Positions 1 through 43,829 of a stretch of 44,116 bases of DNA are shown in pieces. Under the pieces are notes generated by a model that saw only the letters and a list, made by a program, of their open reading frames with translations, did no database searches and had not been told where the DNA came from. The translations under genes were made by a program, and so were the position numbers. Every line of letters starts with the position of its first letter. Position 1 is the stretch's first letter. The stretch lies in contig NZ_CALFBQ010000060.1 in NCBI RefSeq assembly GCF_937951745.1, positions 1 to 44,116 on the forward strand, in the 5' to 3' direction. Origin of the DNA: an uncultured Chloroflexus sp. Its GTDB lineage: Bacteria > Chloroflexota > Chloroflexia > Chloroflexales > Chloroflexaceae.

Positions 1-627
1 AGGGGATTTAAACCCATCACATGCGCCGCTTCATAGTGGTGCTTCAGCACCACCTTCAAAAAACCAAAATCCCCGCGAGGGGATTGAAACGCAACATCAA
101 AAGTTGGTACGTCGTTTGATTGCCGAGCTTCAAAAAACCAAAATCCCCGCGAGGGGATTGAAACGTAAAATCCAAAAAGGCGCGGAAGTGGTGCCGTTCG
201 CGTTATCTTCAAAAAACCAAAATCCCCGCGAGGGGATTGAAACGGGAGCAACTCGGTCCGGATGAACTGGCGAAGGTTTTCGCTTCAAAAAACCAAAATC
301 CCCGCGAGGGGATTGAAACGGACAACCCCAATGCGCCGTCCCCGTCCCTGTTCGCCGACCTTCAAAAAACCAAAATCCCCGCGAGGGGATTGAAACTTGA
401 CCACACTGGCCAATTGAACGTGTTGACCACACTGGCCTTCAAAAAACCAAAATCCCCGCGAGGGGATTGAAACATAACTAATAGCCATTGCACGACAGCA
501 TGAGCATATACCTTCAAAAAACCAAAATCCCCGCGAGGGGATTGAAACACCAACAAGCCGGCCAAGGCCGCCAGCAAGACCAACAAGCCGCTTCAAAAAA
601 CCAAAATCCCCGCGAGGGGATTGAAAC
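1..627 (+). CRISPR. CRISPR array, 8 full repeats plus 1 partial
   Basis: Eight identical 37-nt repeats lie at 54-90, 128-164, 207-243, 283-319, 360-396, 437-473, 512-548 and 591-627. A partial copy at 1-13 has one change (GATTTAAAC for GATTGAAAC). Spacers are 37-42 nt. Each repeat contains the palindrome CCCCGCGAGGGG and ends in ATTGAAAC, the usual 8-nt 5' handle of Cas6-processed crRNAs. On that basis the plus strand is the crRNA strand and the leader lies left of the window. No cas gene is present in the window, so the subtype cannot be assigned; the repeat style fits type I or III. The last repeat runs directly into an open reading frame. Confidence 0.98.
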
Positions 628-1205
628 CCGATGTGGGGCGCGGTCTGACCAATGTCCCCATCGATGCGGACCCGAACGAGCGGTTTCGATATTACTTGGT
701 CGCATTGATGCTCGCCCAAGGATTACCATACACGACCTCGCCTGCGACGTATCTTACGTGCATCCAAGAGGACGACCAAGAGGTTGCCGATAGGGTTCAA
801 CGAGCATTTCAAGACGTGCAACCTCTCGTTGAAGCATGGGCGAGCAACCAAGCGGCCATGAACGGGCAGCGGTTGTCCGATGTCTCTATCGAGATTGCCC
901 GTGTCCTTCAAGATCATGGCTTCTTTGACGGGTATCGGGACAACCTCGAGGATGTTATCCGCCGTTTCATCGGAAGTCTACCGGATGCCTCTGTCGACGA
1001 CGGCGACGGTGACGGCGACGGTGACGGCGACGGCGACGGCGACGGGACGGGCCGTGGCAAAAGCCGCGGCAACCGCCGTGGCAATCAATCGGGTGACGGT
1101 GACGGTGACGGTGACGGCGACGGCGATAGCGATGGCGATGGCGACGGCGACGGTGACGGCGACGGGCCGTGGCAAAAGCCGTGGCAAGCAATCGGGCGAC
1201 GGTGA
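621..1205 (+). CDS. N-terminal part of CobT-like VWA protein (frameshifted, 5' end abuts CRISPR repeat)
   Basis: The open frame continues out of the last CRISPR repeat; the first usable starts are TTG 621 (inside the repeat) and GTG 633, neither with a ribosome site, so the native start is probably lost. About 120 residues look alpha-helical (for example NERFRYYLVALMLAQG and VADRVQRAFQDVQPLVEAW). They are followed by a (DG)n tract and a GRGKSRGNRRGNQSG basic block. The frame then ends in PWQKPWQAIGRR, which is out of phase with the repeated GRGKSRG motif. The sensible continuation is the frame of the VWA ORF that ends at 2526. I infer that this is the amino-terminal half of one protein split by a 5-base loss near 1162-1166. 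The layout (helical domain, acidic linker, VWA) matches the CobT family. Confidence 0.6.
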   Translation: MKPDVGRGLTNVPIDADPNERFRYYLVALMLAQGLPYTTSPATYLTCIQEDDQEVADRVQRAFQDVQPLVEAWASNQAAMNGQRLSDVSIEIARVLQDHGFFDGYRDNLEDVIRRFIGSLPDASVDDGDGDGDGDGDGDGDGTGRGKSRGNRRGNQSGDGDGDGDGDGDSDGDGDGDGDGDGPWQKPWQAIGRR

Positions 1206-2526
1206 CGGCGACGGTGACGATGGTGACGGTGGCGGTCGTGGGAAGGATCGCGGCAACCGCCGCGGCAAGCAATCGGGCGACGGCGACGATGGTGACGATG
1301 GTGACGATGGTGATGGTGGCGGTCGTGGGAAGGATCGCGGCAACCGCTGCGGCAAGCAATCGGGCGACGGTGACGGCGATGATGGCGACGGTGGTGACGA
1401 TGACGGCGACGGGACGGGCCGTTCCTCTCCGGCGGGAACCGCCGATAGTGCTTCTCCACCTCGTCCGGGGGCGGATCCTACTGCCGGAACGAACCGACCC
1501 ATCGGTGGTGTCCTCCCGCGCAGAGAACGGTTATCACCCGGCGATTTTGAACAGAGTATCCAAACGGCATCCCAAACGATCCTTCAAGCCATTTCCGGTG
1601 AGATCGCTCGGGAGATATCAAGCGCTACTCTCGGACAGCAGAACCGGGGGCGGAACTCGAAGCAGATTGCCGTGAAAAACGGGGTGGTATCCGAAGTCGA
1701 GATCGTCCCGATGGAGTCGACCAGTGTGTTTTCACCCGGCGAGCGTGCCGGTATTGAGGTGGTAGCATCGGTGACCGCTGCAAAGATTCTTGACGCGGTT
1801 CGGGTGGTTTATGTGCCGCAAACGAACCAACTAAGTGGGCGACTTCCCTCACGTAGTCTTGTGCGAGCAGCCGTTGGCGCGTCTGAAACCGAACTGCCGT
1901 CGGTCTTTCGTCGAAATCGGCAGGAGCGGCGGCCTCGCCTTGCCATATCAGGCATTTTCGACGTAAGTGCTTCGATGGTAGACAGCTATGCGCAGCTTGC
2001 GTCCGCTGCTGCCGTTATGATCCGCACGGCCGAAATCCTCAATACCAATCTCGCTCCTCACAGCGATGCGCAGGATGCACCGATCCAGATGGAGATGCGC
2101 GCCTTTTCGACATCGCAAGGGATCCTGCTTTCCTTCGAGGATAGCTTGGCCGAGGTCGATGTCAACAGGGCTACCGCGCTGCAGACGGATGGTCGAGTCG
2201 TCGGGGGCGGTACCATGGGTGAAGAAACGATCAGTGCTTCCATGTATGCCCTTGCAGCCAGCTCGCCCGATCGACAGCGTATCCAGTTAATCTGTCTCGA
2301 TGGTGCTTTTTCCGACGAGCAGAATGTTGCCGATGTCCTGAAAGAGGTGCGGGGTGCCGGTATCTTACCGTATGGTGTCTTTATCGGGGCATCGCGTGAT
2401 GACGTGGTTGCCAACCTCGGTCGCCTGTTTGGCGACCGGTTCATGGTCATTCCCAAGGTTGGCGATCTGCCCGATGTGTTCGAGGCGATCGTCCGTGAGA
2501 ACCTCGCGAATCTATCCGACAGCTGA
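880..2526 (+). CDS. CobT-like von Willebrand factor A domain protein (C-terminal part; true start uncertain)
   Basis: The genuine protein sequence in this frame begins near 1167; from 880 to there the frame is a shadow of the upstream fragment. It has repeated GRGKxRGxxxGKQSGDGD linker units, then a conserved lead-in (SGRLPSRSLVRAAVG, then VFRRNRQERRPRLAI) resembling CobT, then a VWA domain. The MIDAS residues are visible: FDVSASM (DxSxS), the Thr of GGGTMGEE and the Asp of CLDGAFSD. CobT-type VWA proteins work with CobS/MoxR AAA+ ATPases, and such an ATPase is encoded convergently at 3430-5070. No good internal start with a ribosome site is seen after 1167, so in this sequence the protein is either not made whole or depends on a frame change. 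The gene is in the sense direction of the CRISPR transcript and could be reached by read-through. Confidence 0.7.
   Translation: MSLSRLPVSFKIMASLTGIGTTSRMLSAVSSEVYRMPLSTTATVTATVTATATATGRAVAKAAATAVAINRVTVTVTVTATAIAMAMATATVTATGRGKSRGKQSGDGDGDGDDGDGGGRGKDRGNRRGKQSGDGDDGDDGDDGDGGGRGKDRGNRCGKQSGDGDGDDGDGGDDDGDGTGRSSPAGTADSASPPRPGADPTAGTNRPIGGVLPRRERLSPGDFEQSIQTASQTILQAISGEIAREISSATLGQQNRGRNSKQIAVKNGVVSEVEIVPMESTSVFSPGERAGIEVVASVTAAKILDAVRVVYVPQTNQLSGRLPSRSLVRAAVGASETELPSVFRRNRQERRPRLAISGIFDVSASMVDSYAQLASAAAVMIRTAEILNTNLAPHSDAQDAPIQMEMRAFSTSQGILLSFEDSLAEVDVNRATALQTDGRVVGGGTMGEETISASMYALAASSPDRQRIQLICLDGAFSDEQNVADVLKEVRGAGILPYGVFIGASRDDVVANLGRLFGDRFMVIPKVGDLPDVFEAIVRENLANLSDS
996..1415 (+). repeat. 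Coding hexanucleotide repeat (GACGGY) with interspersed basic units
   Basis: GACGGC, GACGGT and GACGAT hexamers alternate with three or four copies of a unit encoding GRGKxRG. Hexamer slippage would keep the frame. However, the join GACGGGACGGGCCG (near 1041-1054 and again near 1408-1421) appears near 1161-1169 as GACGGGCCG, one ACGGG unit short. That 5-base loss shifts the frame. Confidence 0.85.
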
Positions 2527-2536
2527 ACCCGTAACC

Positions 2537-2566
2537 GTGCGGTCGGATACGCCAATCCGACCGCAC
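2537..2566. terminator. Hairpin between convergent genes
   Basis: A perfect 12-bp stem (GTGCGGTCGGAT with ATCCGACCGCAC) has a 6-nt loop. It lies just after the VWA stop at 2526 and just before the 3' end of the opposite-strand gene at 2578. No T tract follows on either strand, so termination is inferred from position and strength. Confidence 0.6.
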
Positions 2567-2577
2567 GAACCTTCGGA

Positions 2578-3375
2578 TCACGGTGCCATCGCTGCACTCT
2601 TGATTCGAACTTCGGGAGGGAGCTGATACTGTTGCGTGATGGTGGCGGACGTTGCGGTGAGAAGGTGCTGGCCGATCCATTGCACCAATCGGGCCGGGGA
2701 CGTTGCCGATTGGTCGAGGATACCATGGTGCTCGATCGTCCAGCGAATCATTGGATGGTCGTTGGGGGGCGGACATGGGACAGCCTTGGTGTACCAATCG
2801 TTCATGGCAAGCAGGGAGCGAAGGGTTGCTCCTGCTACGGTCACCGGCAGATGCCGCTCCGTCATCTCCTTGGGTGCCGCGGCCCACGTGAGTAGATGGA
2901 TAACGATCAAGGCTGCGATGCGTTTTCGGTCTTCTTGTTCGAACGATGCGAGCGGTTCCAGCATCATCACATTCAACGACACGTGGTCCTGCTGTGGTTG
3001 TCGGATGGCCACGGCCATTCGGTGTGGCCCGGTATGCACAAGGGCCATGTCGGTCTGCATTCCCACGGTCGCCGTCATGGCGACCGGCGTGATGGTCGCC
3101 TCGACCGCTTCGGGCAGGATATGGATCTCAGCATCGGGTATGCGACTTAATCCATCACGAAATGCGAGACTACTAATCGTCCATCCATCGTATTACCACG
3201 ACTGAATCGGTTCATAGGCATGACATGGAATGGCGATGTCACACCCATCAGGCTTCCGTGATGGAAGACGTAGCATAAACGACCACCGGATATCGTCAAA
3301 CGGGGGGATGGTCTGGACGTCCACGAGAGTCAGCGATGCTTGGGTCATATCGGCGTGCATATGATCGTACTCCAT
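2578..3375 (-). pseudogene. Unknown 265-residue protein interrupted by an in-frame TAA
   Basis: One minus-strand frame is open from ATG 3375 to the stop at 2578 except for a TAA at 3193-3195. Upstream are 60 residues ending HAYEPIQSW; directly downstream the frame continues sensibly (YDGWTISSLAFRDG, then IPDAEIHILPEAVEATIT). The part from ATG 3078 (166 residues) contains a predicted helix FEQEDRKRIAALIVIHLL and ends PPEVRIKSAAMAP. I recognise no family. It follows the AAA+ ATPase gene on the same strand after 54 nt, so it is probably the third member of the VWA-MoxR group. The TAA could be a nonsense mutation or a sequencing error. Alternatively the downstream part may be a separate gene starting at 3078. 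Confidence 0.55.
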
Positions 3376-3385
3376 GATAGACGAT

Positions 3386-3420
3386 GGCGATCTCTCTCCG
3401 CAGCCCGGAGGGAGATCGCC
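3386..3420 (-). terminator. Strong hairpin after the ATPase gene
   Basis: A 15-bp stem with one mismatch and a 5-nt loop (arms 3386-3400 and 3406-3420) lies ten bases beyond the ATPase stop and before the next same-strand gene. There is no T tract; it may attenuate read-through or protect the 3' end of the ATPase message. Confidence 0.5.
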
Positions 3421-3429
3421 GACGTACTC

Positions 3430-5070
3430 TTAGTGACCACCTAGGAGTTGCCGGAGGAGCACGAGATACGGTTCCCTACTCGGACCGTTTGGCGCGCACC
3501 ACGTAAGGAAGTTCTGAAACCGTTCGCCGGCTCTGGTTGATAGGAATGGCACCCCGCCGAGCGCTTCTCCCTCCACCAGTGCTTGGGCGGCGAGTTCCAG
3601 CGCTTGGTCTGCCATCCGCTCCCCGATTGCTCCATGGGGATCACGGTGAAACTTGTTGAGTTCACCGATAATTGCGTGATACCGTGCGAGCTCCTTGGCG
3701 AGTTTCTGCTTCTTGGCGGGTGGGAGGGTGATATCGTTCACCAAGGCGGTTCTACTGATGACCGACAGATAATCCGGCGGTCGTGCCCCCAAGACGATGC
3801 GAGACGCGCGGTCGCCAAGCGACCCATGCACGTACTCTTTCCCCGGGAACGGTATCATCGTCATCACGAACACGGTGGCCGGATGGACGGGGATCGTTCC
3901 GACCCGCGGGACGGTCACTCGGCGGGTTCCGGTCGGGTCGGCTTCCATCACTTGTTGGAGGGAGGTCTGGACATTGATCGGAAGTTCATTGACTTCGTTC
4001 AAACAGACCACACCGCCCATCATGGCAACAGCGACTACCGGGCCGAGGCGGAAGACGGTTGAGGTTGCCCCCCCGGACGATTTAAACCGGATCCCACCGA
4101 ATAAATCCGTGAGGTCCGTCTCGCCGGTCACGTCTATCGATAGGAAGGGAACCCCATACCGGATACTCCCATCTTCATCTTGCCACGGCATAAATGCCGC
4201 CAGTTGCTGAGCAATGGTCGTCTTCCCGGTACCGGGCGGGCCACTGATGAGATAGCTGAGCAGCGACCCACTCTTCGCCAATCTCTTCTTGGCCTTTTGG
4301 AGCTTGGCAAGAATGGTTCGTCGCTCGTCGTCCGACGATGCGCGTTCTATCTGCTCGTACAGTTTGGTGTAGATTTTCCGCAAGTCTGCACTGCGCTTGA
4401 GGTTGTACTGGATAGCGCCTATGGCCTTATCCAGATGTTCGTTCCGGTCGATGGCGGCGGGTTGTGGAATCGGGAATTGCCGGACGAGCTCGCTCGGCGT
4501 CGGTATCTCGGCCGGGATATTATGCTGTTTGAGCCACGCCTCGAGCGGTTGGAACTGTTCACCCGTCCAATCCGGCCTTGGCATCGGGGGGATACTGAGT
4601 GCCAATTGTGCAAACGGGTTCCCGATGTCCGCTAATCGCCGGACCTCGTCCTCGCTGCGGGTGTTCGCCCGAATCTCATCGAGGATCGCCTCCCCATACT
4701 GCGGGGCCGGTTTTGCAGTATCCTGAATCCCCAAGATCCTCTTGAGGATTTCATGATCCTGAACGGCTTCGGGGTGCGTCGTACGTCCCAAAGCGGCGAG
4801 TGCACGTCGCACGTCCGGCCGCTGTGTGAACGTATCCCAATGTGAGGGATAGCGCATGGTGCCGATGTCTTGCATCAGTTGGAGTGTGTATTGGCACCAT
4901 TGATCCTCATCTGGGGAAATGGTTTCCGAACCGCGAGCGACATTCTTGATGGTTTCGTAGAACACCAGCAGGGCTTCTCCTACCTTATCTGCATTGTCGA
5001 CATTCAAATGGGCGGCCACTCGGTGCTGGATTGCTTGCACAAAGTGGCGGATCTGGTAATCACACGACAT
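3430..5070 (-). CDS. MoxR/CobS-like AAA+ ATPase
   Basis: This 546-residue protein has an N-terminal region of about 190 residues that I do not recognise, a charged helical stretch (about 210-265), then the AAA+ core. Walker A is GPPGTGKT (277-284), followed by TDLFGG (about 321) as in MoxR/CobS proteins. Walker B reads VVCLNEVNE (about 354-362), with Asn where Asp is usual. The sensor-1 region reads FVMTMIP rather than the usual ATxNP. A likely arginine finger lies in GDRASRIVL (about 419-427). MoxR and CobS ATPases remodel partners through a VWA protein bearing a MIDAS site, and a CobT-like VWA gene converges on this one. A good ribosome site (AGGAGGAGG, 5076-5084) and an extended -10 support the start. 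The unusual Walker B and sensor may mean weak hydrolysis or decay. Confidence 0.85.
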   Translation of the reverse strand: MSCDYQIRHFVQAIQHRVAAHLNVDNADKVGEALLVFYETIKNVARGSETISPDEDQWCQYTLQLMQDIGTMRYPSHWDTFTQRPDVRRALAALGRTTHPEAVQDHEILKRILGIQDTAKPAPQYGEAILDEIRANTRSEDEVRRLADIGNPFAQLALSIPPMPRPDWTGEQFQPLEAWLKQHNIPAEIPTPSELVRQFPIPQPAAIDRNEHLDKAIGAIQYNLKRSADLRKIYTKLYEQIERASSDDERRTILAKLQKAKKRLAKSGSLLSYLISGPPGTGKTTIAQQLAAFMPWQDEDGSIRYGVPFLSIDVTGETDLTDLFGGIRFKSSGGATSTVFRLGPVVAVAMMGGVVCLNEVNELPINVQTSLQQVMEADPTGTRRVTVPRVGTIPVHPATVFVMTMIPFPGKEYVHGSLGDRASRIVLGARPPDYLSVISRTALVNDITLPPAKKQKLAKELARYHAIIGELNKFHRDPHGAIGERMADQALELAAQALVEGEALGGVPFLSTRAGERFQNFLTWCAPNGPSREPYLVLLRQLLGGH

Positions 5071-5114
5071 AACGACCTCCTCCTTGGGTGCTGGCGGTGC
5101 AGGTAATCGATGCT

Positions 5115-5123
5115 ATTATACCA
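5115..5123 (-). promoter_or_regulatory. Extended -10 promoter of the AAA+ ATPase gene
   Basis: On the minus strand the sequence reads TGGTATAAT, a TG-extended consensus -10, 45 bases upstream of the ATPase ATG. No good -35 hexamer lies 17 nt further up. Confidence 0.55.
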
Positions 5124-5973
5124 CATCGGTTGCTATCGGTGTCTCTCGGTTCATCCTGACGGTGTGATACGTCGCCTATCCGAGCGACCATCGGTGCCCT
5201 CCCGTGGTCGACGCCGATGCATCCGATCAGAGGTTCCGGAAAGACGAGGAAGTCGCGCCGGTATGTGCACGTGGTTACCCCGTTCATCCCCTCTGCTTCG
5301 GTGGTGCCGAATCGATCCTGATGGGGTGAGGAATTGGGGGCGTGGTCGGTCGTAGGACGAGGTGCCATTCGGCCACCGGATACGCCCGACCGTCGGTGCC
5401 TCCGACCTCCCGACGGTGGCGATGCGTGTCACCACGGACGGTGATGACCGACCGAGGGATGGAGTGGCGACGGGAGCATCCCGACCGAGGGACATGATGC
5501 GTGACCACACCCATCGTCTCGCTCCATCCCTCGGCCGTATCTCGTGGAGGAACGGTGGGAGCATGATTACCCTTCGGTGAGGGATCGGCGCCGTGGTGAT
5601 CCTTGTTCCGTGCCCATGGATCGGCGATCACCCGTCATGGTTCTTGCCTGTCGGTGTGATAGCATCGGTGGCTTGGCCGTCTTGTGGGGTATGGGGGAGG
5701 AATACGATGGATCGGGAAGGATGAATCGCGATCGTGGGGTCTGACCTGCGGTGCGACCTCAAGACCGGTCCCCGCTCTTCAACGGGTGACCGCATCGTGC
5801 GCTTGTCTCCTCGGTTGAGTCGTCGGGTACCGGTGGGAAGTTCTCCGACCGAATCGGTCTTTGGTATCGTGGAGGGTTTCCCCGCGATGCGGTCGGTGCT
5901 CGCTTGAGACGAGCGCCGACCGCATCGCGGGAGGGGGATCGGGTACCGAGACGGCGAGATTCCCTTTGTGCGT
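5124..5973. other. 850-bp stretch without a credible gene, rich in inverted repeats
   Basis: Open frames exist on both strands, but they are short, Arg/Pro/Ser rich and match no family I know, as expected of chance frames in GC-rich DNA. The stretch is dense in CGGTG, CCGACC and CCGATC words. It contains a 13-bp inverted repeat (CCGAGGGATGGAG 5452-5464 with CTCCATCCCTCGG 5522-5534) and the strong hairpin at 5881-5931. It lies between the ATPase promoter and the 3' end of the Asp-box gene and may encode structured RNA. Confidence 0.5.
5881..5931 (-). terminator. 22-bp hairpin downstream of the Asp-box gene
   Basis: Arms 5881-5902 and 5910-5931 pair over 22 positions with a single G-U type difference and a 7-nt loop (CTTGAGA). 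It lies 43 bases past the stop of the 5974-8745 gene. There is no T tract, so it may act in 3'-end protection, or it may be part of a non-coding RNA. Confidence 0.6.
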
Positions 5974-8745
5974 TCACCGTCGATTGGTGACCAGCGGAAT
6001 GTAGACCGTCCATGACGACGGCGGCGGCGGCGGATCGGACGACGGCGGCGGCGGCGGATCGGACGACGGCGGCGGCAGTTCGTTCAGTGGGCGAACCAGC
6101 ACGTATTCGGCAGTCCACGGACTTTTTACGATGACGCGATCACCCGCTAATGCAATCATCGGAACTCCCGCGATGCTTTCACTGAACCCTCGTTCTCCCT
6201 CCCTCTGCGTGACGCATCTCGGTTTGGTCGAGGCCGCATCACCAATCCATGCCCACGTTCCACCAGCATCGGTTGTCCGATACAATCGTGCGACGACACA
6301 CCAGCGCCGCGGATGTTCCGTCCACCACTCAAATGCGGCGAGAATGATCGTCTTCCCACTCGGATCGCGGGGATCGGCAATCGCCGCATGAAACTGTTGA
6401 TCGGCGATGATGGATGAGTTCTCCACCAGACGCGTAAGCGGTGCCCGTCGCCTCGTGACCGGCGTCCCGTTGGTGTCCCCTTCGATAACCCATATGTCTG
6501 CATCTTCAATACGGTCGTAGATTTGTTCCGCGCTGACAGCATACCATCGAGTTCTTCCCGGTTCGCCTGTGGGGGCAAAGAGGATGGTGACGTAGTTCAA
6601 CCTCCCATCTTCTGTCACCATGGGCGGGACAGACGCGCACGTGCGGATGGTATACCCGGTACCGTTAGGTTCCCCACAGGTAATGTCGACCGAACCACCT
6701 TCCTGATAGCGCACGACATACCATCGGGTCGGATCGGTTGGGTCCACCACGATGTTACCGCGGAGTTCCGGGATGATATCAATATCATCGGTCACCAGCT
6801 CATGACCGGGTAATCGGATGATAGGCACCCGCTCCCATGTCGCTCCATAATCGGTAGACCGAAATATCCTGCCGAAATTACCCACGAGGAGGACATTCGG
6901 CGTTTGTGGGTTCTGGAAGATGGGCGATACGTCATGGAAGTGCATCGGCAGTCCGATCATGGGATCGCGTCGCCATGTTCGCCCCGTATCATCCGAGATG
7001 AACCATCCCTTTGGCCAACCGTTTGGCCAACCGTTCCCCTTATCCCCCTCATCGCTCGGTACTGGGCGCGGTGCCAGTCCATACCATCGGCTCCGTCCAT
7101 CAGGCAGACGGATCATGCCGAACACCCTTGGGACGGTATGGTCGAAGGTACGATTCGGGATAATCCTGACCGGCCGAGTCAGATCGGTGAGATCGGTGAT
7201 CTCGTTGCCGACTTGATCTTGGAAATGGTAGGGTCCTACCAAGATCATGCGGTAGAGTTCGGTGTTTTCGAACGGATGGCCCTTACTGGCGATCACGGTC
7301 CACGTTTGCCCACCATCCATCGTCCGAATCGCCGGATAGAATGGGCTCGCTGCATACCCGATGTGAGGACGCACCGGATCGCGGTAGAACCACGTATGCC
7401 CTGCACTTGGCGACCAATCTGCCTCCCACGTTCGTCCACCATCCGGACTGGTTGCCACTGCATACAAGCGCTCGAGCGGCGACATGACCGACAGCACCAT
7501 CCGTTGCCGGAACGGGTCGTATCCGAGCATGATGGTGCGTTCGTAGCGGCGTCCCCCCTCTGTCGGTCCATCCCATGTGATGGGCCCCATCCAAGTCCGA
7601 CCGGCATCATCCGAACGGTACACCTTCGCAGTGACCGGGTGAACGATGATGACCGTCGTCGGCGTATCAGGGACAGTGGCCATGATGAGCTGTCGATAGA
7701 TCCGTAGGTTCGGATCGATGCGCCACACGGAGTGTCCCGCATCATTGACGACCATATCCGGCATCTGGATGTCCCGAACGGGGGTGGTGGGATGGCGGGG
7801 ATCCACGTGGACGATCCGCACTTCTCGTTGTCGCCGATTGTTTATCCAGGTGGATTTATCGTGCTGAAACATCACCGTCCAGCGTTGACCATTCCACATC
7901 GGGATAAGGGGCGGCGCCCCCAAGAAGGTCTCGCCCTCGAACCACGTTTCACCACCATCTCGGGTCCAGAGGAGTTGTCGCTCGATGGTTTCGGTGTCGT
8001 CTGATCCCGATGCCGTCCGAACCATCGCGACGATCACGGTTGGGTCGTCGGGATCGACCCATATCCGAGCGATTCCCTGCATGTACCGGCAGATGGGGTG
8101 GTCGGTATCAGGGAAGAGCCGGTGAAACCGAGGATGCGAGAAGGTGATCGGACGCCATGCCTGCCGATCCGGTTGAAACTCAAACAGCACCATGCCGTCA
8201 TATTGGGCAGCGACACAGCGCTGTTTTACCATACCGGCAACGATTTCCCGTCCGTCTGGGGTCCGCCACTGTGCCACCGGTCTGATGCTTGGCGGATACG
8301 ATACGTCGATGACCGTAATGGGGATACGGACAGGGGCGTCATGAATGGCAGCTCCGTTGAGACTATCAGGGGTCACAGTCGTCTTGACGAACGTCTGGCC
8401 GAGGTCGTCACTCCGCTCTACTACGCTCTCTGCGATCGGGGATAGTGGCAGTACCGGATAGCGATACATCTCCCCGTTTGGACCGAACCAGACTTTCTGC
8501 CAGTAGCGATCCTGCGTGACCACACGCATCTGATCGCCATCGACAAGCAGGTGGAAGCCAAAGATCGCCGCCGGTGGATTGGTCGGTCGGTACTGAACCC
8601 CTTGTCCGTACCACAGATCCCCTAGCGGGGTCCACCCTTGCTCGGCTGGATGTGAATAGATGGCCGCCGGATGAGGAGGAGCTGCTGCCATCCCGATCCC
8701 AACGATGAGGAGCATGAGTACGATGATAGAACGACGTGGATGCAT
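5974..8745 (-). CDS. Secreted Asp-box (BNR) beta-propeller protein
   Basis: This 923-residue protein has a signal peptide (MHPRRSIIVLMLLIVGIGMAAA). Many Asp boxes follow: TRDGGETW, SDDAGRTW, SPDGGRTWE, TMDGGQTWT, SDDTGRTW, STDYGATWE and TTDAGGTW. These are the hallmark turns of sialidase-, Vps10- and Ycf48-type propellers. No sialidase catalytic set is obvious, so the enzyme class is open; adhesion or glycan binding is equally possible. The C-terminus is a PPPPPSSD repeat (built from near-identical 21-24-bp DNA units around 6014-6074) followed by TVYIPLVTNRR. This resembles the Pro-rich linker plus short hydrophobic tail seen on many Chloroflexota exported proteins. The ribosome site GGAGGG and a -35/-10 pair support the start. 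Confidence 0.85.
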   Translation of the reverse strand: MHPRRSIIVLMLLIVGIGMAAAPPHPAAIYSHPAEQGWTPLGDLWYGQGVQYRPTNPPAAIFGFHLLVDGDQMRVVTQDRYWQKVWFGPNGEMYRYPVLPLSPIAESVVERSDDLGQTFVKTTVTPDSLNGAAIHDAPVRIPITVIDVSYPPSIRPVAQWRTPDGREIVAGMVKQRCVAAQYDGMVLFEFQPDRQAWRPITFSHPRFHRLFPDTDHPICRYMQGIARIWVDPDDPTVIVAMVRTASGSDDTETIERQLLWTRDGGETWFEGETFLGAPPLIPMWNGQRWTVMFQHDKSTWINNRRQREVRIVHVDPRHPTTPVRDIQMPDMVVNDAGHSVWRIDPNLRIYRQLIMATVPDTPTTVIIVHPVTAKVYRSDDAGRTWMGPITWDGPTEGGRRYERTIMLGYDPFRQRMVLSVMSPLERLYAVATSPDGGRTWEADWSPSAGHTWFYRDPVRPHIGYAASPFYPAIRTMDGGQTWTVIASKGHPFENTELYRMILVGPYHFQDQVGNEITDLTDLTRPVRIIPNRTFDHTVPRVFGMIRLPDGRSRWYGLAPRPVPSDEGDKGNGWPNGWPKGWFISDDTGRTWRRDPMIGLPMHFHDVSPIFQNPQTPNVLLVGNFGRIFRSTDYGATWERVPIIRLPGHELVTDDIDIIPELRGNIVVDPTDPTRWYVVRYQEGGSVDITCGEPNGTGYTIRTCASVPPMVTEDGRLNYVTILFAPTGEPGRTRWYAVSAEQIYDRIEDADIWVIEGDTNGTPVTRRRAPLTRLVENSSIIADQQFHAAIADPRDPSGKTIILAAFEWWTEHPRRWCVVARLYRTTDAGGTWAWIGDAASTKPRCVTQREGERGFSESIAGVPMIALAGDRVIVKSPWTAEYVLVRPLNELPPPSSDPPPPPSSDPPPPPSSWTVYIPLVTNRR

Positions 8746-8783
8746 CCGACCCTCCGTTGTGTGGATGATATTTTTCTTTATCT

Positions 8784-8811
8784 ATTGTGAAGTTTTCTGT
8801 TGATTTGTCAA
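8784..8811 (-). promoter_or_regulatory. Promoter of the Asp-box gene
   Basis: On the minus strand a consensus -35 TTGACA (8806-8811) and a -10-like CACAAT (8784-8789) are 16 nt apart. They sit in an AT-rich patch just upstream of the 8745 start. Confidence 0.55.
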
Positions 8812-8860
8812 TACGTTTCCGATCGTCGTGCTGGGGTTCCTCGGTATCCGGTTGGCGCGA

Positions 8861-9466
8861 CTACTGCGGCATCTGCTGCGATCCCGTTTCGCCCGCATCG
8901 GGTGGGTTGTCCCGGTGCGTCGCTTGATTCCTTGGCTTGGATGCAGAACGGGCACGAACCGCTGCGGCGATGGCTGCACGCACCTTCGGACGCCGTTTCA
9001 TCACCCGACGTATGGCATGCGGATCGGATGCTACGATCTGGATCAGGCGCTCGTCTTCCGTATCCGTCAACGCAACCACTTGAATGGTTGCTTCATTCGA
9101 CCGTGCGATGGACTCCATGATGACATCATCACGAAGCCCTGCCATGATGGCAGCTTGAGCAGCTCGCATCGGGTCGCGTGCGATGGCATGGATTAATCGC
9201 GGATCACGATGCTGGGTCTCGCAGACCACCGCGGTCGCCCATCGTGGGCTGTCGGCTACCGCGGCAATCAGGCGCTCGTCGGTTCGCAGGTCGGGACGTG
9301 CAATCAAGACTTCCGCAGCACATGCCGGATTGCCGATGATGGTTGTGATAAGCTGTTCATTCCTCCAATTGGTCGATCCCATCACCCATGCAGCGAGATC
9401 GGCACTCGTCGCTACGGCACCTATCAAGCGTTCGTTGTCCCGTAGGTCTGCTCGTTCGATCATCAC
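8861..9466 (-). CDS. Helical-repeat protein, 5' end cut off at a CRISPR repeat
   Basis: About six units of 27 residues follow the pattern ERLIxAIAxDPxxAAxVLxxRPDLRxD; clear examples are ERLIAAVADSPRWATAVV and PRLIHAIARDPMRAAQAAI. They resemble alpha-helical solenoids such as LRV or DUF4116-type repeats. The basic tail ends GETGSQQMPQ. The first formal start is GTG 9466 with no ribosome site. The repeat pattern continues upstream in the same frame (EVHLAAIAQEPAEAARVM) to about 9533, where the CRISPR repeat at 9534 supplies an in-frame stop. The gene has therefore lost its 5' part exactly at the repeat. The function is unknown, and it is probably not expressed from a native promoter. Confidence 0.6.
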   Translation of the reverse strand: MMIERADLRDNERLIGAVATSADLAAWVMGSTNWRNEQLITTIIGNPACAAEVLIARPDLRTDERLIAAVADSPRWATAVVCETQHRDPRLIHAIARDPMRAAQAAIMAGLRDDVIMESIARSNEATIQVVALTDTEDERLIQIVASDPHAIRRVMKRRPKVRAAIAAAVRARSASKPRNQATHRDNPPDAGETGSQQMPQ

Positions 9467-9533
9467 CCGAGCCGCTTCTGCCGGTTCTTGTGCTATCGCT
9501 GCAAGGTGAACCTCACGTGCAGCGGCATGTGGA

Positions 9534-9649
9534 CTTCAAAAAAACCAAAATCCCCGCGAGGGGGTTGAAACTCATGAGATGGGTGCGAGGAGCGCCATAA
9601 AGGTGCTCACTACTTCAAAAAACCAAAATCCCCACGAGGGGATTGAAAC
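9534..9649 (+). CRISPR. Two-repeat degenerate CRISPR remnant
   Basis: The repeat copy at 9534-9571 has one extra A and reads GGGGGTTGAAAC. The copy at 9613-9649 has a G-to-A change (CCCCACGAGGGG). They flank one 41-nt spacer (9572-9612). Both are the same repeat as in the array at 1-627. Mutated repeats are typical of the trailer end of an array, so this is probably the detached trailer of the left array. Confidence 0.93.
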
Positions 9650-10307
9650 GTATTGAAAGAGCAATCCCTATGTAAAGCACTTCACCAACGATCGCCAGCC
9701 AATCGGTCAGGTGAAAGCGGTACTGATAGCGAAACGTGCGCTTCGTGCGGCTGAAGCCGCGCACTTCCATCGCTTCGGCGAGTTCGTCGGCGAGACGGAA
9801 CGATTGCACGAGCAGGGGAACGAGTAGGGCAGGGTAGTGGCGCAGAGCGGCCCAGCCCGGTTCGAGTGGGATGCCACGCGATCGTTGGGCGGCGATGATA
9901 TTTTGGATGGTTTGGCTCATAACCGGTACTAGCTGCAATGATGCGCTGAGCGTGAATGCGAACCAGTATGGGAGGCCGCTCTGGACGAGGGCGTTGCCAA
10001 GCTCGGTCGGTGTAGTAGTTTGGAAGAAGAGGAAGAAGGCTGAAAGGAGTGCCGTAAGGCGTAGGCCGACGATCACTGCTGTTGCGAGGTCGAACATCCA
10101 CCAAGTGACGATGATCCACGTGAGGGCTATCGTGGCGACGATCCGTAACCATTGGAGATATGCTTTCACTTTGCCGGTAGCGACAATCATGAGGACGATG
10201 AACCCAAAACTGCTTAATACCCATGCCTCTGTTGGGTCAGCAGTGATAAAGATCATGTAGCCAATGACGAGCGCCAGTTTTGTGCGCGGATCGAGCCTCT
10301 TCATCAT
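9615..10307 (-). CDS. ecfT: ECF transporter transmembrane subunit EcfT (3' end within a CRISPR repeat)
   Basis: This 230-residue membrane protein starts MMKRLDPRTKLALVIGYMIF, the EcfT/CbiQ opening. It has several hydrophobic segments and the two coupling motifs with the Ala-Arg-Gly core (AAQRSRGIPLE and AMEVRGFSR) that contact the ATPases. It should join EcfA and ThiW in one complex. It begins 9 nt after the ecfA stop. The last residues (FNPLVGILVF) and the stop codon are encoded by the CRISPR repeat at 9613-9649, so the native C-terminus is replaced. The last transmembrane helix (IVGEVLYIGIALSI) is intact, so function may be retained. Confidence 0.93.
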   Translation of the reverse strand: MMKRLDPRTKLALVIGYMIFITADPTEAWVLSSFGFIVLMIVATGKVKAYLQWLRIVATIALTWIIVTWWMFDLATAVIVGLRLTALLSAFFLFFQTTTPTELGNALVQSGLPYWFAFTLSASLQLVPVMSQTIQNIIAAQRSRGIPLEPGWAALRHYPALLVPLLVQSFRLADELAEAMEVRGFSRTKRTFRYQYRFHLTDWLAIVGEVLYIGIALSIRFNPLVGILVF

Positions 10308-13904: not shown

Positions 13905-13939
13905 ACAAAATGCCGCTGACCTTGGGGCGATCAGCGGCA
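13905..13939 (-). terminator. Intrinsic terminator of the TPP riboswitch
   Basis: A 9-bp stem (TGCCGCTGA with TCAGCGGCA, 11-nt loop) is followed on the minus strand by TTTTGT. It lies between the TPP aptamer and the cytX ribosome site, the normal place for the expression platform. TPP binding should favour termination. Confidence 0.88.
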
Positions 13940-13952
13940 GATGCCACCGGTT

Positions 13953-14044
13953 GCTTCCCTACGCTGGCATGACCCAGGTCAGGTTCGAGGGTCGATAGCA
14001 TCAGTCGGGCTATCCTCTCAGTCAGGCTCTCCTGACTCCCCTAG
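13953..14044 (-). promoter_or_regulatory. TPP riboswitch (THI element)
   Basis: On the minus strand the conserved blocks appear in order: CTAGGGGAG, CTGAGAGGATAGCCC, GACCCTCGAACCTGACCTGG, GTCATGCCAGCGTAGGGAAG. These match the TPP aptamer core (CTGAGA, ACCTGA-CTGGG, TGCCAGCGTAGGGA). It controls the cytX-thiW-ecfA-ecfT operon by transcription termination. Confidence 0.97.
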
Positions 14045-14097
14045 CTTTTACCGTTTGCTTGGAGCGGCAAAGCGGTCTATTTATTTGTATAGTACAT

Positions 14098-43154: not shown

Positions 43155-43829
43155 TTAGATGGAGATTGTCGACCAATCCCCTGATAGCCGGCTCGTGGTT
43201 TCGGAGAACTGCCGAGCGCGAATGGATGGCATCACCAAACGTGCGCTTGATGACAGAGTTCACCGTCTCTACCTTCTAATGATGGCTATACCAGTCATCC
43301 AACTGGGCTACCGTCACCAACTCGGCCCTAGCGATCTGTTTAGAACGTACCACGTTGCCGCCACGTCGGATGTGTGGGAACAGGTATCTCCTTGTGCCCC
43401 CTCGCCCGTCACAACCAGCATCAGCCATTATCACCCAGCGCTCTCTGCGCGCAGAACACTGCGCCTCGCACTGCACTCTGCTCAGGAACACGTTGTCACT
43501 GCTTGGGATAGTTGCCTGTTGACAAGCCACAACGAGCTGCGAGTACGTGCCCACCGCGACGGACCTTACCCCGAATACTCGCATCGTGCGGCCTGTCCGA
43601 CTGCGGGAATATGTGATCGCCTAGGAGGTAGCGTAGCCGGTGTTCGCAAAGGCCATCGTTTCTTCCTCACTCCTGCCTCGTCTCGCAACTTGCGCTGTAT
43701 CCTCCCCAGCACGTTCATGCGCAGCAGCCGCTTGCAGGCGTGCGATAGGGTGGTGTGGTTCGGCACATGCTGCAACTCCAGCACGGCGCAGACCTTGTCT
43801 GTAATCAACAGAATATATTCTGTAATCAC
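43155..43829 (-). pseudogene. IS5-like DDE transposase remnant
   Basis: Minus-strand pieces in two frames read in transposase order. First is VCAVLELQHVPNHTTLSHAC (N-terminal helix-turn region). After a frameshift come DNVFLSRV and VIMADAGCDGRGGTRRYL, then IRRGGNVVRSKQIARAELVT. After an in-frame TAG (following DDWYSHH) comes KVETVNSVIKRTFGD with the last catalytic Glu. A middle part of the catalytic domain is missing or scrambled. The opposite-strand frame at 43159-43845 is its shadow. The element is dead; no clear terminal repeats were found. Confidence 0.78.

Follow-up and report, generated by a model that had tools for sequence, protein, structure and literature searches.

An 8.9-kb gene block in one spacer position of a Chloroflexus CRISPR array, possibly left by recombination between spacers and their target

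We analyzed a 44,116-bp stretch of DNA from an uncultured Chloroflexus sp. (hereafter, the window), which carries an array of clustered regularly interspaced short palindromic repeats (CRISPR). One spacer position of this array is occupied by an 8,906-bp block of genes (positions 628–9533). The same kind of product is present in three species of the genus and in two kinds of array, those with repeats of the Rfam family CRISPR-DR21 (DR21 arrays) and those of type I-C. We propose, with a probability of about one half, that spacer-protospacer recombination at two spacers taken from the same element swapped the intervening part of the array for DNA of that element. The flush ends of the blocks, their sizes, and the internal protospacer-adjacent motif (PAM) of the type I-C case fit such spacer-target recombination best. 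The data suggest that an immune memory and its target can recombine, leaving DNA of the invader inside the array. In the following, G000 is the genome that holds the window, the other G-numbers are the genomes compared, and L-numbers are fetched loci.

Results

The window is the entire contig C60 of a draft assembly of 94 contigs and 4.25 Mb, and its left edge falls inside the CRISPR array. The leader-side part of the array (1–627, forward strand) contains eight perfect copies of the 37-nt repeat CTTCAAAAAACCAAAATCCCCGCGAGGGGATTGAAAC, located at 54–90, 128–164, 207–243, 283–319, 360–396, 437–473, 512–548, and 591–627. The block follows directly at 628, flush with the repeats and without long terminal inverted repeats, and is succeeded on the forward strand by a degenerate 38-nt repeat with one extra A and one A-to-G change (9534–9571), a 41-nt spacer (9572–9612), and a last repeat with one mismatch to the consensus (9613–9649). 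All 10 repeats exceeded the gathering score of CRISPR-DR21 (RF01334), and the spacers other than the block were 37–42 nt long. Near-identical, regularly placed repeats and unique spacers of uniform length, the features by which a CRISPR array is recognized, were thus present in the window. The original prediction, made from the letters of the window, had described the same 37-nt repeat on both sides, intact up to 627 and degenerate from 9534, with an 8906-bp island in a single spacer position; both statements were confirmed. No further copy of the repeat (allowing up to three mismatches) was detected elsewhere in the assembly. No cas genes were found beside the array in its own genome, where the leader side lies off the contig, and G000 gave no Cas1 match. 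In the relative G006, a DR21 array is preceded by Cas6, Cas1, Cas2, and a protein that weakly resembles Csm6 but scored below the curated cut-off. DR21 arrays are thus putatively type III-associated. Because Cas1 and Cas2 of G006 precede a like-oriented array, and because the right-hand repeats of the window are degenerate, as trailer repeats often are, the leader side of the window array was placed on the left. A CbiQ-like transporter gene (9615–10307) ends within the last repeat, which encodes the final residues and stop codon of the gene; no such repeat was found in the G002 and G006 stretches with the corresponding CbiQ cluster.

Next, we analyzed the contents of the block. Its left end is occupied by a 5′-truncated gene (630–2526, forward strand) encoding Asp/Gly-rich repeats and a C-terminal vWA-like domain, which was named by reading the sequence; the Pfam scan returned no vWA family. 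The gene carries a frameshift at about 1160–1205, and its frame stays open through the repeat. The vWA part follows 1,169–1,642 residues in all four homologues examined, compared with at most 383 in the window. The vWA-like gene therefore lacks an upstream part that its homologues have, indicating that the left end of the block cuts a gene. Five frames follow on the reverse strand: a small protein without a Pfam family (2578–3192), a MoxR/CobS-like AAA+ ATPase (3430–5070; PF07728, E 2.8e-12; phrog_249, E 6.2e-13), a possible small open reading frame (ORF) without a family (5060–5428), a 923-aa BNR/Asp-box repeat protein (5974–8745), and a repeat-containing protein of no known family (8861–9535). 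By its signal-like N-terminus and Pro-rich C-terminal tail, as read from the sequence, the 923-aa protein may be secreted. The frame of the last gene enters the CRISPR repeat and is open to a stop inside it, with no start codon before 9466; the gene is probably 5′-truncated at the right end of the block. The earlier claim that the outermost genes are flush with the repeats and lack native 5′ ends thus held for the left gene, for which longer homologues exist; for the right gene, for which no homologue was found, the loss of a 5′ end is a likely reading of its open frame.

The GC content of the block was 0.59, compared with 0.575 for the contig to its right. Its tetranucleotide correlation with five host segments was 0.26–0.44, compared with 0.50–0.64 among those segments, and the best among nine comparisons was with the G006 block described below (0.57). 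No integrase, recombinase, or transposase family scored above the cut-off in Pfam scans of seven ORFs of the block; among the many AAA families matched by the AAA protein, TniB scored below threshold. The intact copy of the island that the original prediction had envisaged did not turn up. DNA comparison revealed no second copy in the same assembly, where the block matched itself, the repeats, an internal inverted repeat, and, over 51 nt on contig C11, the Asp/Gly-coding stretch. Among relatives, 29 of 41 genomes gave DNA matches, and those listed comprised the repeats and the Asp/Gly-coding stretch. At the protein level, the AAA protein matched in 6 of 41 family genomes including its own, with the best outside match at 43–44% over the AAA core only, and the vWA protein matched in 18 of 158 class genomes including its own, with at most 35% identity outside the block. 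The right-hand protein was found in one of the 158 class genomes, namely its own, and in none of the 157 others. Viral contigs contained four distant AAA relatives and no relative of the query proteins P0001, P0002, P0003, and P0005 or of the G006 protein P0007. Phages and plasmids contained no relative of the one protein searched, and at least 25 distant AAA relatives were present in genome contigs for the one alignment searched. In G051, AAA and vWA relatives share a 70.7-kb contig with a resolvase/recombinase-family protein; eight proteins of this contig were scanned, and the other seven showed no convincing family (one TX13_rpt match was weak and below the cut-off). The G051 contig may be mobile, and it says nothing on the source of the window block. 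The window block is probably a piece of an uncharacterised foreign mobile element.

Equivalent blocks were observed in two relatives. In G006, which is a single contig of 4,890,986 bp, a DR21 array consists of 111 repeats, a 3,374-bp block, and nine further repeats, and both repeats flanking the block are perfect. This block contains a gene that, as read from its sequence, is lipoprotein-like, together with an open frame of 470 aa; no Pfam family passed its cut-off for either. In G003, the array belongs to type I-C (cas3, cas5c, cas8c, cas7, cas4, cas1c) and runs in the order leader, repeat, 33-nt spacer, repeat, 1,448-bp block, repeat, 33-nt spacer, repeat, and contig end; the repeats flanking the block are again perfect. 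A second G003 contig carries 25 repeats of the same I-C kind, and the two contigs probably belong together. The G003 block opens in the middle of a gene for a rolling-circle Rep (phrog_11698, E 2.1e-23; a weak PF01446 match did not reach the cut-off), whose best virus relative has ~185 more residues upstream. Small ORFs follow, of which the two scanned had no family, and they resemble those of filamentous phages by sequence reading. A relative of the block at 32% identity is located on an IMG/VR contig (L155), which carries a Zot-like P-loop ORF (likewise named from its sequence); no such ORF lies in the G003 block itself. The G003 block is probably phage-like DNA of the filamentous kind.

The DR21 array of the same G003 genome contains two spacers that match the G003 block. 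One matched at 29 of 29 and 26 of 26 nt around a 12-bp tandem difference, and the other matched at 95% over 44 nt. Therefore, the block is DNA of an invader whose relatives are recorded in the CRISPR memory of the lineage. No transposase or integrase family exceeded the cut-off in the three ORFs scanned in each of the G006 and G003 blocks. In all three blocks, exact inverted repeats longer than 6 nt were absent within 60 nt of the ends (longest, 5–6 nt). At least two of the three begin mid-gene, in the vWA gene of the window and in the Rep gene of G003. The earlier view, in which a broken piece of foreign DNA splits a single array, is supported.

A survey of arrays was then used to compare gap and spacer lengths. 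It covered 113 loci of the genus and class, with the window left out, and comprised 76 non-overlapping putative arrays and 5,110 spacers. The loci had been picked near Cas1 or repeat matches and are not a random sample, adjacent stretches of one long array were counted separately, and gaps were sought between like-oriented repeats. Ten gaps were longer than 500 bp: five insertion sequences (IS), three unexplained gaps, and the two non-IS blocks of G006 and G003. Transposase domains identified the IS in L159, L160, L167, and L185; that in L189 was called from a 19-nt inverted repeat and a DUF4277 domain, which we take to be part of IS1634-like transposases. Exact terminal inverted repeats measured 18–19 nt in L167 and L189, 11 nt in L159, and 6–7 nt in L160 and L185. 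The unexplained gaps (L176, L181, and L269) were 516–628 bp long and located at array ends beside degenerate repeats. DR21 spacers in relatives (n = 695, counted from gaps of 20–75 nt only) were 35–48 nt long, with one of 62 nt, and I-C spacers in the genus (n = 189) were 29–39 nt long, with modes at 33 and 34 nt (58 each). In this genus, the only gap of intermediate length (between 62 nt and 1.4 kb) in DR21 and I-C arrays measured 118 nt and contains a degenerate repeat. The 8,906-nt window block is thus outside the normal spacer range of Cas1-Cas2 as given by the DR21 lengths. In the three non-IS blocks of kilobase scale, the inserted DNA lies flush between repeats; the right-hand repeat of the window block is degenerate.

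The type I-C block permitted an examination of the PAM. In the type I-C system of Xanthomonas oryzae, PMC8406640 gives the PAM as TTC, located 5′ of the protospacer. The last 34 nt of the G003 block are directly preceded by TTC, which thus lies one spacer length from the right repeat. TTC occurs 16 times in 1,446 positions of this block (~1% per position), and the chance of a TTC so placed was 0.033 for lengths of 33–35 nt and 0.075 for 31–37 nt. The internal TTC is support, not proof, for recombination at two spacers.

Discussion

We propose the following route to such a block. First, the cell would have gained two like-oriented spacers (S1 and S2) in one array, both taken from a single element. 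DNA of this element, possibly cleaved at its protospacers by the CRISPR machinery, would then have recombined with the array at S1 and S2; alternatively, the element might have integrated at one spacer and later been trimmed by recombination at the other. The array between S1 and S2 would thereby have been replaced by element DNA from protospacer 1 to protospacer 2, the product being what is observed in the three genomes. A block formed in this way would be flush with the repeats and start or stop inside genes, because the element DNA runs from one protospacer to the other. The joins would fall exactly at the repeat-spacer borders, because each spacer already links a repeat to element sequence. 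The length of the block would be set only by the distance between the protospacers and therefore fits the range of 1.4–8.9 kb. In a type I block, the trailer-side spacer must have a PAM before it inside the block, because S2 is a genuine protospacer in this model. In the window, the remains of S1 would occupy the leader-side end of the block (628–668, forward strand) and those of S2 the trailer-side end (9493–9533, forward strand); these extents are taken from DR21 spacer lengths, since the right boundary of S1 and the left boundary of S2 are not visible. As for the persistence of the block, S1 would stand behind a repeat and lack a PAM, and S2 would lack a 5′ repeat and so give no guide. Without a PAM at S1 and a guide-forming repeat at S2, the inserted DNA would go untargeted by either, and autoimmunity would be avoided.

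Several points weigh against recombination at two spacers. The PAM result is one case (G003) at p ~0.03–0.07 and was judged after the sequence had been seen; the fetched loci yielded no PAM for the genus, and the DR21 arrays of the window and G006 give no PAM test. When 4,405 spacer entries (nine from the window, some duplicated) were compared with the window block, with reversed spacers as a control, no convincing match was obtained; the best matches were 29 nt at 93%, in the low-complexity part that codes for Asp/Gly. Neither an intact donor element nor a pre-recombination array was found, so S1 and S2 are hypothetical. The G006 block is not clearly foreign in composition, with tetranucleotide correlations of 0.30–0.58 with other segments. 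Perfect repeats on both sides were also present in two IS gaps (L167 and L189), in which the IS ends lie 17–42 nt inside the gap. Furthermore, homology of 34–42 bp is short for RecA-dependent exchange. As a separate observation, two identical G007 spacers (L131, 14042 and 14263) match positions 1016–1044 of the window block over 29 nt at 93%, a low-complexity match that is possibly due to chance.

The interpretation given by the original prediction is partly supported: its candidate explanations were well chosen, and spacer-target recombination was missing from them. One of them, integration of a very long fragment by the adaptation machinery, means that Cas1-Cas2 (in type I-C, together with Cas4) inserted kilobase-long linear DNA as one giant spacer and duplicated the repeat. 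Such a capture likewise predicts flush ends bordered by repeats; moreover, the G003 block takes the second position counted from the leader, the side at which new spacers are added, and Cas1 and Cas2 genes adjoin the G006 DR21 array. However, the DR21 and I-C arrays of the genus have no tail of long spacers and no intermediate lengths, and a TTC at precisely the length of a spacer from the right repeat would be unexpected, both of which speak mildly against it. In addition, the right repeat of the window is a variant whereas the left one is not, and we know of no in vivo precedent for capture of kilobase length. We therefore consider this route rather unlikely. It also appears unlikely, somewhat more so, that the adaptation machinery of the genus installs kilobase-long invader DNA as single "mega-spacers", with arrays being gene-capture sites besides a memory store of 35–45 nt. 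Long capture by Cas1-Cas2 would be a more surprising answer than recombination at two spacers. Recombination between arrays, another candidate on the original list, found no positive evidence. A whole mobile element might instead have integrated at the repeat, either by a CRISPR-like repeat of its own or by an integrase using the repeat as an attachment site. The repeats on both sides agree with this, and prophage integration into CRISPR loci and a proposal of solitary repeat units are in print, as far as the citing papers discussed below describe them. Nevertheless, no integrase or recombinase family exceeded the cut-off in the scanned ORFs (seven in the window and three each in G006 and G003), and the blocks are fragments, with the vWA gene lacking its upstream part and the G003 Rep its first half. 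Because a circular element would carry the missing gene halves at the other end of the block, integration of a whole element is disfavoured, and we regard it as improbable.

A misjoin of two unrelated contigs at the 37-nt repeat in the draft assembly would account for the window taken alone, since the contig starts inside an array in an assembly of 94 contigs; the frameshift in the left gene also points that way. Against it, this contig itself resolves eight identical repeats that are separated by different spacers, and the repeat, at up to three mismatches, is absent from all other contigs. The right-hand repeat is a variant that occurs once and shares no word longer than 25 nt with the consensus. 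Equivalent blocks are also present in the single-contig G006 and in a second array type, I-C of G003. Together with the variant right repeat, these two cases make the assembly misjoin raised by the original prediction quite unlikely. An ordinary insertion of a transposon or integron-like element, or native genes bordered by two separate arrays, is favoured in one respect: IS are the commonest kilobase-scale interruption of arrays, accounting for 5 of the 10 survey gaps above 500 bp. The scanned ORFs, however, contained no transposase, and no exact inverted repeat above 6 nt was found within 60 nt of the block ends; the inverted-repeat test is a weak one, because the IS gaps L160 and L185 also lack a long exact inverted repeat. 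In the genus genomes searched, nothing close to the block genes was found, and the block starts inside a gene. These possibilities are highly improbable.

Recombination at two spacers can be compared with systems in which CRISPR loci and foreign DNA have been joined. Work in staphylococci (Varble et al. 2019, cited in PMC8616872 and PMC10434264) described recombination between CRISPR spacers and their phage targets. As far as these citations go, the likeness lies in an exchange between an array spacer and its phage protospacer; in contrast to that system, where the phage transfers CRISPR-cas sequence, element DNA would here stay in the array, two spacer positions would be involved, and the genomes are natural ones. 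In Streptococcus pyogenes, Varble et al. 2021 (cited in PMC10434264) reported prophage integration into CRISPR loci. There, too, foreign DNA interrupts a CRISPR locus; in the outline given by the citing paper, the present cases differ in having no integrase in the scanned ORFs, gene-truncated fragments, and two CRISPR types. Integration via solitary repeat units has also been proposed (cited in PMC8616872). From the short account there, flush repeats on both sides would likewise be expected; unlike the blocks, which are incomplete, the product would be a whole circular element. In Sulfolobus, PMC3025118 describes insertion of ISC1359 into a matching CRISPR spacer, as well as deletions with perfect repeat-spacer junctions that were attributed to repeat-repeat recombination. 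Such IS-in-spacer cases resemble ours as kilobase-scale interruptions, and two of the five IS cases of our survey had perfect repeats on both sides. Unlike the IS cases, which carry a transposase or, in L189, the presumed transposase-type domain with a 19-nt inverted repeat, the three blocks have neither.

In the literature searched, in which subscription journals were thinly covered, we found no description of kilobase-scale foreign blocks flush in a spacer slot. We rate recombination between CRISPR loci and their targets as known, and the retention of invader DNA in the spacer slot as what is new here. CRISPR memory is viewed as one-way, with short copies going in and guides coming out. Were spacers also to act as short arms of homology, immunity would itself provide a way for kilobases of the attacked element to enter the chromosome and stay there, shielded from that immunity. 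Recombination at two spacers, if true, would also account for over-long gaps, which programs that search for CRISPR may report as two separate arrays; a block would, together with its end spacers, preserve the sites at which an invader had been targeted.

Additional observations

Type I-C repeats were also observed in G000 at two places on contig C46. At 43609–43642 (reverse strand; L150/L246), a lone perfect 34-nt type I-C repeat is located inside a trmJ-like gene, which was named by sequence reading. The insert consists of the repeat and ~34 nt of leader-like or spacer-like sequence, ~68 nt in total. The flanking parts of the gene match and adjoin each other in six of seven other genus genomes; for G002, a single flank was among the matches listed. 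One repeat unit thus seems to have moved into the chromosomal trmJ-like gene. At 60394–60939 (L151), a type I-C repeat-spacer-repeat remnant lies beside a short array of an I-E-like 28-nt repeat at the contig end; as stated above, no Cas1 was found in this genome. In G004, an array end (L123, 5484–6334) carries degenerate repeats separated by four gaps of 185 bp each, a higher-order tandem structure. Elsewhere in the window, a thiamine pyrophosphate (TPP) riboswitch (RF00059) was identified at 13939–14052 on the reverse strand, upstream of a cluster encoding a permease, ThiW, and an energy-coupling factor (ECF) transporter.

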